Origin: Candidatus Aenigmatarchaeota archaeon
GTDB taxonomy: Archaea > Aenigmatarchaeota > Aenigmatarchaeia > Aenigmatarchaeales > JACQIB01
Reading direction: 5' to 3'
Assembly (NCBI GenBank): GCA_016198755.1
Contig: JACQIB010000005.1
Span: 112,931 to 176,930, forward strand
Length of the DNA: 64,000 bases
Position 1 is the stretch's first letter; every line of letters starts with the position of its first letter. Under the pieces are notes generated by a model, which made no database searches, was not told the origin of the DNA, and was given only the letters and a program-made list of their open reading frames with translations. Below are positions 2,535 through 49,659 of this stretch, in pieces. The translations under genes were made by a program, and so were the position numbers.

Positions 2535-2716
2535 CCTGTTAGTTGGTAGATACCAATCCCCATGAGAATCACCATTTTAGAAAGCTTATGGGAGACTTTA
2601 CAGTATAAGAATCAGGATTTTGCCTGAGTTTAAAGTCTCTGCTTTCATTTTCAAAACCTTTTAATCATTGGAAGGTAGAAATATTTAAAGCATATCTACT
2701 AAAGTTTTAGGGCATA

Positions 2717-3052
2717 TTACTCTATTAATTTATAGATAATATGTCTTATTTTATTAAAAGTTTCTATTTTAATTTCTCCAATTTTTAACTTAATAAGAGA
2801 TTTGCTTATGCTGAAAATTCTGTCAACCTTAACTTTGCTATCTGTGATTAGCCTGCCAGTTTCTAGGTCTTTATTTGTTATTAAAAGTGTGTGTTCCCTT
2901 ATTTGTATATTTGTTGTCATGGGGACTACTATTATATCATCAAATTTTGAATTGTAATTGTTATTCGAGAGTACTATAACAGGCCTTACCTTAGAGGTTT
3001 TCATATCAGAAAATGGAAAAGATAATAATACTATATCCCTTTGCGAGACCAC
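2717..3052 (-). CDS. MazF/PemK-like toxin
   Basis: QRDIVLLSFPFSDMKTSKVRPVIVLSNNNYNSKFDDIIVVPMTTN motif of the PemK/MazF family. Confidence 0.85.
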   Translation of the reverse strand: MVSQRDIVLLSFPFSDMKTSKVRPVIVLSNNNYNSKFDDIIVVPMTTNIQIREHTLLITNKDLETGRLITDSKVKVDRIFSISKSLIKLKIGEIKIETFNKIRHIIYKLIE

Positions 3053-4822: not shown

Positions 4823-5273
4823 ACAGCTCCCTCCATGCTTCCTTTATCAGCGCCACATTCTTTTTTGTTTCTTCTGTTCCAACAACCCGCAGGCTGGGAT
4901 CCTCTATTTTTTCATACCATTCCCCGCTCTCGTCCTTGGTTCTGGGTATTATATGCCAGTGTAAGTGGGGGATAGATTGTCCTGCAATTTCTCCTTCCTG
5001 CAGAGCTATGTTAAAACCCTCTGCATTGTATGTGTGTACGACTGCTTTTGTTGCCATGTGAAGTATTCTGGACATCTCTTCCACCTCATTCTCACCCATC
5101 TCTAGGAAGCTTGGGATATGTTTTTTGGGGGATAAAAGGATGTGGCCCATAAAAACAGGTTTTAGGTTGTAAAACAAAATAAACTTTTCATTTTCAAAAA
5201 TTATTTGGGCTCTGGCAACAAACCCTTTCCCTACTATATCCTTCTCCTCTATGGTACAAAATGGGCAGCTCAT
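4812..5273 (-). CDS. HIT family hydrolase
   Basis: Zinc-like CPFC N-terminus and IPHLHWHIIPR histidine triad. Confidence 0.92.
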   Translation of the reverse strand: MSCPFCTIEEKDIVGKGFVARAQIIFENEKFILFYNLKPVFMGHILLSPKKHIPSFLEMGENEVEEMSRILHMATKAVVHTYNAEGFNIALQEGEIAGQSIPHLHWHIIPRTKDESGEWYEKIEDPSLRVVGTEETKKNVALIKEAWRELYGG

Positions 5274-42671: not shown

Positions 42672-42911
42672 ATGTTTAACATGGGAACGCAGATTACAAT
42701 AAGAGATGTGGATACGAAAACATTTAGGGAGTTTAAGGCTGCATCTGTGTCTAGGGGATTGAAATTGGGAACTGCAGTAACTTTGGCCATGGAAAAATTC
42801 AAGTCAGAAATAGAGGGAAAGGAAAAATTTGCAGCGCTAAAACCCATTAAATGGGGGAAAGGAACGGAACGAGTAAGCGAAGATGTTGACAAAATACTTT
42901 ATGGCGAGTGA
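42672..42911 (+). CDS. Putative antitoxin (VapB-like)
   Basis: 79 aa, TQITIRDVDTKTFREFKAASVSRGLKLGTAVTLAMEKF; overlaps PIN gene by 4 nt. Confidence 0.75.
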   Translation: MFNMGTQITIRDVDTKTFREFKAASVSRGLKLGTAVTLAMEKFKSEIEGKEKFAALKPIKWGKGTERVSEDVDKILYGE

Positions 42912-43306
42912 AAATGATCTTTATAGATGCCAGTTTTTTTCTGGCTTATGATAACGAAAATGATGTGCACCACAGCAGAGCTTTGGCTATTTTGGATGAT
43001 ATAGAAAAATATGGTCCTGTATTTACATCTGATTATATTCTAAATGAAGTTGTAGGAGTTGGCCTTAGAAAACTGGGAAAGGAGAGAGCCGTTACTTTGG
43101 GACAGCACATACTAAAAACAACTTTCATTATTAATGTAGATGAACATATTTTTTCTGAGAGTTGGGGAGCATTTTCAAAGACCGATCTTAATTTAAGTCT
43201 TGTTGACTGCACGACATTGGTTATTATGAAGCTTGCGAATGCTGGCAAAATTGCAACCTTTGATAAAGAATTCAGAAAAATAAATTATTTGGATGTTTTG
43301 GAGTAA
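42908..43306 (+). CDS. PIN-domain toxin (VapC-like)
   Basis: MIFIDASFFLAYDNENDVHHSRAL...SLVDCTTLVIMKLANAGKIATFDKEF. Confidence 0.88.
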   Translation: MKMIFIDASFFLAYDNENDVHHSRALAILDDIEKYGPVFTSDYILNEVVGVGLRKLGKERAVTLGQHILKTTFIINVDEHIFSESWGAFSKTDLNLSLVDCTTLVIMKLANAGKIATFDKEFRKINYLDVLE

Positions 43307-43916: not shown

Positions 43917-44696
43917 ATGGTAACAACAAACAGGGATATAATAGATAATTTAGCTCCTCTGCTGGATTCCCCTAAATACAATGAACAGGGGATTGGAGCT
44001 CCACTAAGGTTTGTGAATGGTTCTGTTGATGGGCAACTGGACTGGAAAAAGAAAGGTTACCTATCCAGATTAACATGGTCTGAGGCAAGGAGAGTTGCTG
44101 GATTAAGGGGGGAGAAATTGTGCTCCCTTCCAGGAGCGATTGCAAACCTTAGCTTTATTCCTGATGGGTATGGGGTTCATTTGGCTGGACCTGTTTTTTA
44201 TAGACCCGAACCTGTTGGGACTGCAAAACCTGCTGCTGAAGGGATAAGGGTTGAGAGGGTTTATATGCTAAAGGAACCTGCGGTAACCCTTAGTGGAGAG
44301 CAGGTTGTGCTGGATGGAGTGAATGTAAAAAATGGTTCATTGGTATGCAAAGATTTTATAGATGCTGAGCTGGCATTTGAGGATTATAGATTGAGAGCTG
44401 TTGGAATGGATGATTTTATTGGGCTTGCTGAAAGAAATGGGCTGTTTAGGAGGGGTGAACTGGAGGCTGTTAGTATAAGGGATTTGGAGGAACAGCCGAA
44501 AGCTGAAGAAAGGGTTGTTCTTGACAAAAAAGTGCATTTCCAGTTTGGTGGGGGGAGATGGGCTCTTCCAAAATTAAGTTCTTTGGGTAATAGGGTTACA
44601 GAAGAGGGGAATAATGTTGCTTTGCTTTATGTTGAGTTTGTGCCAGCAACTGAAGCTGATGGATTTACTCTAGTAATGCCGGAAAGAAAGATTTAA
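43917..44696 (+). CDS. Hypothetical protein
   Basis: 259 aa open frame. Confidence 0.55.
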   Translation: MVTTNRDIIDNLAPLLDSPKYNEQGIGAPLRFVNGSVDGQLDWKKKGYLSRLTWSEARRVAGLRGEKLCSLPGAIANLSFIPDGYGVHLAGPVFYRPEPVGTAKPAAEGIRVERVYMLKEPAVTLSGEQVVLDGVNVKNGSLVCKDFIDAELAFEDYRLRAVGMDDFIGLAERNGLFRRGELEAVSIRDLEEQPKAEERVVLDKKVHFQFGGGRWALPKLSSLGNRVTEEGNNVALLYVEFVPATEADGFTLVMPERKI

Positions 44697-44880
44697 AATG
44701 ACCGTCAGGTGCAAGGGGCCGAAGCCCCAAGCCTGCGGTTGCTCTTGCTCTTTGGGTTTGTGAAAACCTTTGGCACTCACCTCTCAAATTAAATTGCTGC
44801 CGGCGGGGTTTTCATCCGCAGCAGCTGAAAAGAGTTACCGGCCCTCACAGGAGGTATCTGTAAGAGCCCACCGCGCTGAC
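44695..44880 (-). ncRNA. Candidate structured non-coding RNA
   Basis: Non-coding on both strands; minus-strand TATA at about 44898-44904; hairpin GGGGC-UUCG-GCCCC at the 3' end, long-range pairing GCGGU/ACCGC and GCUC/GAGC, terminal GUCAG/CUGAC. Confidence 0.4.
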
Positions 44881-44892
44881 CAGAACTATGGG

Positions 44893-44908
44893 GGAGTATA
44901 TAAACTCC
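44893..44908. promoter_or_regulatory. TATA-like promoter embedded in an inverted repeat (GGAGT-ATATAA-ACTCC)
   Basis: Perfect 5-bp arms around an AT-rich TATA core, about 20 bp upstream of the candidate RNA. Confidence 0.45.
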
Positions 44909-44945
44909 TTATGAAGAGGTAATAGGGACTTTAGGTTCAGCTTTT

Positions 44946-45743
44946 TCAGGGCTTTTGGAAAGCTAGGAAAACCCCTTCTATATCGTCTCCATTAATTCCG
45001 GAAGAATGGACTCTCTCGTTTCCTGCTTTTGAAAACCCTTCAGAAAGCATAGCAGCCTGTGTCATATCTCTATACTCGTCAAAAATAGGTATACTCAGCC
45101 TGTCATAGATTATTACCATACCATGTGGCATAACCCAAGAAGATACTAAAGGAGCTACTCTCCTTCTTAAAAATGCTGCAGATTCTGGGTTGGAAAGTCT
45201 GGTATTATGGGCTTCAGTAATGGTAGCCACTATATTTGTTAAAACAACTGCATCGTATTTTTTGTCAGGTTTGTAAGTTAAAACGTCCTGCACAGAAAAG
45301 CTTGCATTGGCTGCAGAATATTTGGCTTTTCTCGTTTCTGCAACCTGTATTGATTCATCCACCATATCAATTCCGTGCACTGTTGATTCTGGGTTTTGCA
45401 AAGCATACCAGACAGTTTTCAGTCCTGTAAAGCAGCCTGCATCAAGTATAGCTTTTCTTCCTTTTAGTTTCCTGTTTACCTTTTCTGTTATTGTTAGATT
45501 CTCTCCGTATTTAGCTGATTCAAAAAGATGGTCTACACCATTACTTGCCTGGAAGGCATAAGCTGAAAAATCAGCACTGCTTGGACGCTGCGCGTTCCCA
45601 AGAAGACGAAACAGTTCTCTGGCCTTATCTATGCCGAGTATGGAAATCTCTTCTTCTACTAGCTGAGAGTCACTGATTCTTCTCACGCCTTCTGCTGCTA
45701 AATAGGCTGGCAGGCTAAGAACCATTAGAAACCCCCAGTGCAA
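44946..45743 (-). CDS. Class I SAM-dependent methyltransferase
   Basis: GRKAILDAGCFTGLKTVWYAL...VHGIDMVDESIQVAETRKAKY...YDAVVLTNIVAT. Confidence 0.78.
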   Translation of the reverse strand: MHWGFLMVLSLPAYLAAEGVRRISDSQLVEEEISILGIDKARELFRLLGNAQRPSSADFSAYAFQASNGVDHLFESAKYGENLTITEKVNRKLKGRKAILDAGCFTGLKTVWYALQNPESTVHGIDMVDESIQVAETRKAKYSAANASFSVQDVLTYKPDKKYDAVVLTNIVATITEAHNTRLSNPESAAFLRRRVAPLVSSWVMPHGMVIIYDRLSIPIFDEYRDMTQAAMLSEGFSKAGNERVHSSGINGDDIEGVFLAFQKP

Positions 45744-47136: not shown

Positions 47137-49659
47137 TTAAGCAGACAGACCAGCCTCTTTTCTTAACAAAGCTGCCATGTCTGTGCGCTCCCAGGTAAAG
47201 TCTGGGTCGTTCCTTCCAAAATGGCCGAAAGCTGAGGTTTTTTTGTAGATTGGCCTGCGAAGATTGAGATGGCTTATTATTGAGGCTGGGCGGAAGTCAA
47301 ACTGTTTCTTTACAAGTTCTTCAATTTTTTCCTCTGGGAGCTTGTTTGTTCCAAAGGTGTTTACTGTGATTGAAACTGGGTGGGCAACACCTATAGCATA
47401 GGCAACCTGTATTTCACATTTGTCTGCTAAGCCTGCTGCTACAACATTTTTAGCAACATAACGGGCCATGTAAGCCGCTGAACGGTCAACTTTTGTCGGG
47501 TCCTTTCCTGAGTTATGCACCACAAAACCGTTTGCTGTGAAAGCATGGGTTACAGGAATGTTGAGGTCATATGTACGATTGAAAGAAGGGATTTTGCGGG
47601 AAGCTTTTGTATAGTAATGCTTCATGAAAAAGAGCTGTTTTAGGTAATCGAACTCCGGATCGCTTTTTAGGAAGCTTTCATAAGCGTTCAAAAAGTCTTT
47701 TAACTTTTCATATGTAAGTTCTTTTGTTGCTTTGCCTTCAAATTTCCTTGTAAAGCGACTTATTTGAGCAATATCACTTCTCTGCTCCAGAACCGGAAGT
47801 TTTTTGAAAAGGCGTTTTATCCTCTGCCTCTGGTTTGGTATAACAGAACGGTCTGTTTTGTTTTCCAGCGATACTCTGTTCAATATTGCTTGTTTTCTTG
47901 GAAGTTGAAAACCCACTTCATTTTTGAAAATTCTAATGCTATCTGTGCCTTTTATTATCACATTATAAAGTGCATGCTGGCTTGTTATTTTTCTTCCCCT
48001 GATTTCAGAGACTTTTCCAGGTTCAGTTTTGCATATGTGGGATATTATTCCGAAATTTAAAAGCAGGAGCTGAACATCTTCTGCAAGCTGCTTACTTGTT
48101 GTTGCTAAATGTGCTCTGGGAGAGGTTTTGTTTCTGCCGTCAATTCTAACAGATCCATCTGTGTCAAAAAGGCCGCGCAGAAAAGCGGCAACATTTGATT
48201 TTGTACCATTCCATATAGCCTCCGGTACAGTTTTATCAAAGGAACGCAGCCTTTTCAAGCCTATGAACTCAAGATATGCACGCAGTTCTACTCCACCCAT
48301 ATACGCCCAGTGACCGTATGCCTTACCCTTATCTCCAAAGAGGCGAAGGAAAAGCTCTTGCACATTTCTTTTTTGTTCTTCTTCACAGATACAAATTCTT
48401 ATGCATCCTTCATCTGTACAATCCCCATCACCTACAAGCAGACCAAGCAAATAGGCATAATCATCTGTAAGCTTGTCTGGAAAGCTGTATTTTTTCTTTC
48501 GTCCTTCTGCTGTACCTTCTTTGTAAGAAAACTTGAATTTTCCAATATCCCCATTCCCAAATAACCTGTCTTTTTTCTGTATAGGCAATATATCCCCGGG
48601 CATTATTTCACTCATGGATTTCCATATATAATTTCCTTCTGAATCGAGAACTCTTATCTGGTGGTTGGGTGTGGCTTCCAGACTATATCCATCTGAAGTT
48701 AACAAAAGCATTGTTTCTTTTGTTCCATTGTCCCACCACTCTCCTGCAGGCATAGGGTGCACATCTGTTTTTACCAGTGTTCCAACTAGGGGTTTGCACT
48801 CCTCTATTTTTCTTGTTCCTTTGTCTGTATTTATTCTGCTATGCCCAGCAAGGCAGAATGCACCTCCTCCATGCCTGCCCATTCCACCGTAAGTGTCCAT
48901 TATTATTTTTCTTCCTGTAACTCCAGAATCTCCTGGAGGGCCTCCTATAATAAATTTTCCGGTAGAGTTTATGTGGAACTGTGTTTCAGAATCTATCCAT
49001 TTCCCGCATACAGGTTTTATCACTTTTTCAATAACATCACTTTTCAGCTTCTCATAAGTAACATCTGGAGAGTGCTGGATTGCTATAACAATTGTTGTTA
49101 CTCTTTTAGGAACACTGCCCTCATACTCTACTGTTACTTGAGACTTCCCGTCTGGCCTTGCCCATGAAAGTTCACCTGAGCGGCGGGCTTCTGAAAGTTT
49201 CTGTGTTAATCTGTGAGCCAGAATAATTGGTAGTGGCATTAATTCTGGGGTTTCATTGGAAGCGTAACCAAACATTAAACCTTGGTCTCCTGCACCCTGT
49301 TCCCTCGCTTCAGTTGCTGTAACTCCCTGTGATATGTCTGGACTCTGCTCATGCAAAGCAACTAAAACAGCACAACTGTCTGCATCAAATCCATACTCAG
49401 GCTTGTCATATCCAACCTGCCTTATTGTATTGCGGACAACGCCCTGAACATCAATATAACCTTTTGTTGTAACCTCCCCTGCAACAACAATTAAACCTGT
49501 TGTGGTCAGGGTTTCTACAGCCACGCGGGAAAAGGGATCCTGCTTGAAAAGTGCATCCAGTACTGAGTCTGATATTTGGTCACAAATTTTGTCCGGATGA
49601 CCTTCTGTTACCGACTCTGATGTAAACAAAGATGTTTTGCCCATTAAATCACCTTTCAC
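47137..49659 (-). CDS. metK: S-adenosylmethionine synthetase (bacterial-type MetK) containing an intein
   Basis: [54 protein letters not shown]; split GGGAF // [14 protein letters not shown]. Confidence 0.96.
47512..48855 (-). mobile_element. Intein (448 aa) with LAGLIDADG endonuclease domain in MetK
   Basis: Begins [13 protein letters not shown], block [20 protein letters not shown] motifs [11 protein letters not shown] and [11 protein letters not shown], ends [10 protein letters not shown], +1 Ser. Confidence 0.95.

Follow-up and report, generated by a model that had tools for sequence, protein, structure and literature searches.

A candidate stand-alone structured RNA gene between convergent genes in an aenigmatarchaeal genome

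The gap at positions 44697-44945 of the window (the whole 64-kb stretch of DNA that was analysed) probably holds, to judge from its sequence, an orphan folded RNA of about 180 nt that is transcribed on its own. The best explanation, to which a probability of roughly 60% is given, is a stand-alone, lineage-restricted noncoding RNA (ncRNA) gene on the minus strand, driven by a TATA promoter, comprising three or more tandem hairpins and most likely acting in trans. A structured ncRNA with its own TATA promoter had been proposed for this strand in a first-pass annotation, and this is the best-supported reading, with GC content, fold, strand bias, non-coding character, promoter spacing and a U-rich tract in agreement; every sequence element named there was located on the minus strand.

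Locus, composition and folding signal

The host genome (G000) comprises 0.89 Mb in 6 contigs and is 89% complete. The gap, earlier put at about 250 bp, is exactly 249 bp long and lies between the stop codons of two convergent genes, encoding an orphan protein of 259 aa on the plus strand (43917-44696) and a class I SAM-dependent methyltransferase on the minus strand (44946-45743), the latter being the upstream neighbour on the same strand as the RNA candidate. For the orphan protein, Pfam and NCBIfam gave no match and 158 genomes of the class no homologue. In the order, neither of the two flanking genes is conserved, and the proteins they encode led to no syntenic loci. As judged by reading the open reading frames (ORFs), the surroundings are ordinary chromosome, with exosome, eRF1, GatB, MetG and MetK-like genes. 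When ORFs of at least 75 aa are masked, the gap is the second longest in the window, the longest being an interval of 972 nt with 36% GC (238-1209). Near the RNA, at 42672-43306 (plus strand), a small protein is encoded together with a PIN-domain protein that weakly matches VapC-type toxins in NCBIfam (E 0.00096), a possible toxin-antitoxin pair. A bacterial-like S-adenosylmethionine synthetase gene (47137-49659, minus strand) appears to be split by an intein (11 protein letters, not shown, ...VVHNSG).

The GC rise over background reported in the first-pass annotation was borne out: the 174-nt RNA body has 56% GC versus 41% for the window, and none of 6,383 sliding windows has an equal or higher value, while the gap as a whole has 51% GC versus 17-40% in the other gaps listed. 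In this respect the candidate is close to the genome's own RNase P and SRP RNAs, each with 57% GC. Folding of the minus strand yields -74.7 kcal/mol versus -59.2 ± 4.2 kcal/mol for 500 dinucleotide shuffles (z -3.7; 0.2% as good), the candidate folding better than 499 of the 500. When the entire window is scanned by regression on dinucleotide composition, it ranks second to third among 5,108 positions and strands, and comparison of the two strands gives z -3.2 for minus versus z -1.7 for plus. The cUUCGg loop, previously cited as support for the minus orientation, belongs to the only CUUCGG hairpin with at least four pairs in the window, both strands counted. The strongest fold residual of the window (z -4.1) belongs to 2576-2750 (plus strand), an inverted repeat, AGACTTTA...TAAAGTCT, which lies in AT-rich sequence not covered by long ORFs.

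Promoter, transcript ends and predicted fold

The TATA element of the first-pass annotation is present on the minus strand as TTTATATA (44904-44897), within the palindrome GGAGTTTATATACTCC (44908-44893), and is correctly spaced, but the match by itself is no rarer than expected by chance, the octamer occurring 10 times in 64 kb. On the plus strand, too, it reads as a TATA box; the minus-strand reading is favoured because the purine-rich AAGGAG (44910-44905) stands in front of it. By reading of the sequence, TATA-like boxes stand about 25-27 nt ahead of three known RNA genes of this genome (RNase P, SRP and tRNA-Ile), and the same spacing would place the start of the candidate at 44876-44874, exactly at GCGGU. 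On the other side, a U-rich, termination-like tract, UUUUAAAUCUUUCUUUCC, occupies 44698-44680, and T-rich tracts also directly follow the 3' ends of the RNase P and SRP genes of this genome. This agrees with termination at U-tracts in archaea (PMC7289017; PMC8716108). We thus infer a transcript of about 175-187 nt (44876-44690, minus strand), which would be initiated from the promoter at 44904-44897 near 44876-44874 and would end at about 44705-44690, in the U-rich tract. A similar element, CTTCATAAAGGGTTTATATACTC, was found in a relative near 4964-4987 (G013:C7, locus L071; E 0.003) and in another related genome (G117:C6, locus L073), and may perhaps represent a common promoter type of this phylum.

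The predicted RNA has three or more hairpins in tandem, connected by a linker that is A-rich and single-stranded. Local hairpins at 44868-44840, 44839-44772 (core 44825-44796) and 44728-44715 recur as stable elements in every fold or almost every one. The first is a predicted 11-bp helix, GGCUCUUACAG/CUGUGAGGGCC, closed by the 7-nt loop AUACCUC; with -17.0 kcal/mol it is the most stable helix of the RNA, and it appears in every fold made. The CUUACAG/CUGUGAG pairing described earlier lies inside this hairpin, and the GCUC/GAGC extension proposed for the GCGGU/ACCGC pairing is not supported, since it conflicts with this much stronger helix. Hairpin 2, GGUA...UGCC, has a strong core (GCUGCUGCGG/CCGCCGGCAGC), which contains the previously noted GCUGC/GCAGC pairing, and a 9-nt bulge, AAUUUAAUU. 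It is followed by the mostly unpaired A-rich linker AAAGGUUUUCACAAACCCAAAGAGCAAGAGCA (44771-44740) and by hairpin 3, whose GGGGC-UUCG-GCCCC element was found as annotated at 44728-44715 and can be extended to ACCGCAGG...CCUGACGGU (44739-44701), with -21.8 kcal/mol in isolation.

Long-range pairings are a weak point, since helices of 5 bp between distant segments arise often in 180 nt, and the closing pairs are worth a few kcal/mol. In particular, GUCAG (44880-44876) and CUGAC (44708-44704) can pair as the first-pass annotation had it, but GUCAG lies largely upstream of the predicted start at 44876-44874, and the helix is probably not part of the transcript. Likewise, GCGGU (44874-44870) can pair with ACCGC (44739-44735), but the latter can instead extend the UUCG hairpin. 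Forcing ACCGC into the extended hairpin costs about 3.7 of -74.8 kcal/mol with a start at 44880; the minimum-energy form contains the extended hairpin for starts at 44872 and 44869, and GCGGU/ACCGC for starts at 44876 and 44874. Two crossing pairings are also possible, namely an 8-bp pseudoknot (44814-44761) between UGAAAACC in the loop of hairpin 2 (44814-44807) and GGUUUUCA (44768-44761), which has -8.1 kcal/mol and competes with a weak local hairpin, and a 6-bp helix between UACCUC in the loop of hairpin 1 (44856-44851) and GAGGUG (44783-44778). In a shuffle test, crossing helices and pseudoknots showed no excess over chance.

Known RNA classes and competing readings

The window has no Rfam match at the gathering threshold, so that assignment to a known class, one of the outcomes that would have spoken against the first-pass annotation, was not obtained; at relaxed thresholds (E 10) the best match had E 1.1, to unrelated families, and ARAGORN found no tRNA or tmRNA in the window. 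The RNase P and SRP RNAs of the genome are encoded elsewhere (RF00373 at G000:C5:70763-71068, 112 bits; RF01857 at G000:C3:212783-213055, 114 bits), and neither identity is supported for the candidate. Archaeal RNase P and SRP RNAs resemble the candidate in being GC-rich, TATA-driven, T-tract-ended products of stand-alone genes, whereas the candidate is shorter, is not conserved in the order and matches neither model. A C/D box RNA, sought by RUGAUGA and CUGA boxes and a length of about 50-60 nt, is not supported either, the closest C-like element found by reading being GGAUGAA and the length about 180 nt.

Rfam usually misses individual H/ACA guides, and their sequences are poorly conserved. 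Such a guide for pseudouridylation, in an atypical multi-hairpin form, is a very unlikely identity for the candidate: its tandem hairpins and size fall within the range of the rare two- or three-hairpin archaeal H/ACA guides (PMC7991803), but it has neither a valid ANA-box pocket nor an rRNA target. With criteria taken from the same study (a hairpin pocket and an ANA box 14-16 nt from the target site), a descriptor scan returned only candidates with weak lower stems that break hairpin 1, in a number reached by 3 of 40 shuffles, and none of 20 possible pockets matched uridines in the genome's own 16S and 23S rRNA. Reading by eye only, we saw no clear K-turn or K-loop (L7Ae site) in the candidate. 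Cas12f occurs in DPANN archaea, and TnpB guide RNAs occur in archaea (PMC12558985). A guide or tracr-like RNA of TnpB, Cas12f or a related nuclease would fit the compact size of the candidate, its hairpins and its possible pseudoknot; this is extremely improbable here, as the zinc ribbon of these proteins (PF07282) has no match in the genome (about 89% complete), and neither a TnpB/Cas12f-type gene nor a repeat array lies beside the RNA.

Two further readings dispense with an RNA gene. The position between convergent stop codons, with hairpin 3 and the U-tract just beyond the plus-strand stop, is what would be expected if the locus were a structured 3' untranslated or termination region common to both genes, the UUCG hairpin acting on mRNA ends. 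This is possible but unlikely: at 249 nt the gap would be a long one of its kind, its composition differs from that of the other gaps listed in the window, archaeal terminators do not need hairpins (PMC7289017; PMC8716108), and the RNA is separated from the methyltransferase stop by a TATA box with the spacing found at other RNA genes. A small protein gene in place of an RNA gene is highly improbable; a 50-codon ORF starting with TTG (44770-44922, plus strand) has a weakly positive codon score of 0.094, yet scores averaged over the gap lie below zero in each of the six frames (-0.13 to -0.32, versus +0.15 to +0.33 for five genes), and both GC content and folding indicate RNA.

Related genomes and possible function

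One point against reading the locus as an ncRNA gene is the lack of homologues, and with it of covariation and of any sign of selection. Searches of 158 genomes of the phylum, the nearest of which belong to other families of the order, yielded no credible homologue of the candidate, and BLAST of the region against 146 relatives returned only short chance matches and the promoter resemblance described above. Searches of the order and the phylum with a single-sequence covariance model (R1) gave two matches that were rejected, one (E 0.0015) being a collapsed 78-nt alignment within the coding frame of RNA polymerase A' and the other (E 0.087) lying within the coding frame of a HAD-family protein; run without filters over 29 loci, the model found nothing above noise. 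Phages and plasmids gave no match either, and a 21-mer had no exact counterpart in viral contigs. As a control, which serves as a guide only, since it consisted of BLAST and nhmmer runs on loci already in hand, the RNase P RNA of the same genome found 12 of 13 relatives of the order (local BLAST, E 1e-5 or better) and the SRP RNA 9 of 11 (nhmmer, E 2e-4 or better). Because these RNAs are detected at the same distance and the candidate is not, the latter is less conserved than RNase P or SRP RNA. An RNA that evolves fast or is confined to one family would give the same picture, the nearest genomes being from other families.

The next minus-strand gene downstream, MetG, is 2.1 kb away across plus-strand genes. 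With nothing on the minus strand that could be controlled in cis for 2 kb, a leader or riboswitch is unlikely, and the RNA would act in trans. Five nucleotides of the hairpin 1 loop AUACCUC, namely ACCUC, recur in the 16S rRNA tail GGAUCACCUCC (anti-Shine-Dalgarno), a match noticed after the fact; the 16S 3' end, GGATCACCTCC, is present in the same genome. In the window, Shine-Dalgarno-like motifs occur near the starts of 18 of 71 genes versus 8.6 in controls, or about twofold. The ACCUC loop could thus pair with the ribosome-binding sites of some mRNAs, and GAGGUG of hairpin 2 could occupy it, providing an internal switch. Such gated pairing is the most likely mechanism, though a speculative one that we hold with low confidence, and no strong target for the loop was identified in the window. 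Less likely still is the broader proposal of a new lineage-restricted class of archaeal ncRNA, defined by an internally gated anti-Shine-Dalgarno loop and an 8-bp pseudoknot between the hairpin 2 loop and the linker.

The candidate shares with trans-acting archaeal regulatory small RNAs a predicted promoter of its own, its length, an exposed loop and linker and a loop complementary to the Shine-Dalgarno motif, and differs from them in matching no known family and in having a regulatory role that is only proposed. It probably belongs among the stand-alone small RNAs of archaea, though it is a modest candidate and not an established finding. The ncRNAs of small-genome archaea that lack a cultured representative are almost uncharted, and in the literature searched the few papers that connect noncoding RNA, small RNA and DPANN offer, by their titles and abstract openings, no catalogue of such genes. 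A well-delimited orphan RNA gene with a predicted promoter, ends and fold can be sought directly in metatranscriptomes; general concepts would be unchanged unless the gated anti-Shine-Dalgarno reading proved true.

Both large rRNA genes of the genome carry large insertions. The match to the 23S rRNA gene (G000:C5:27827-32081, locus L080) spans 4,255 nt versus the 2,987 positions of the model, and the 16S rRNA gene (G000:C2, locus L081) extends over about 3,470 nt from CCGGTTGATCC to GGATCACCTCC. Within these genes, frames of 311, 224 and 278 aa resemble intron-encoded homing endonucleases.
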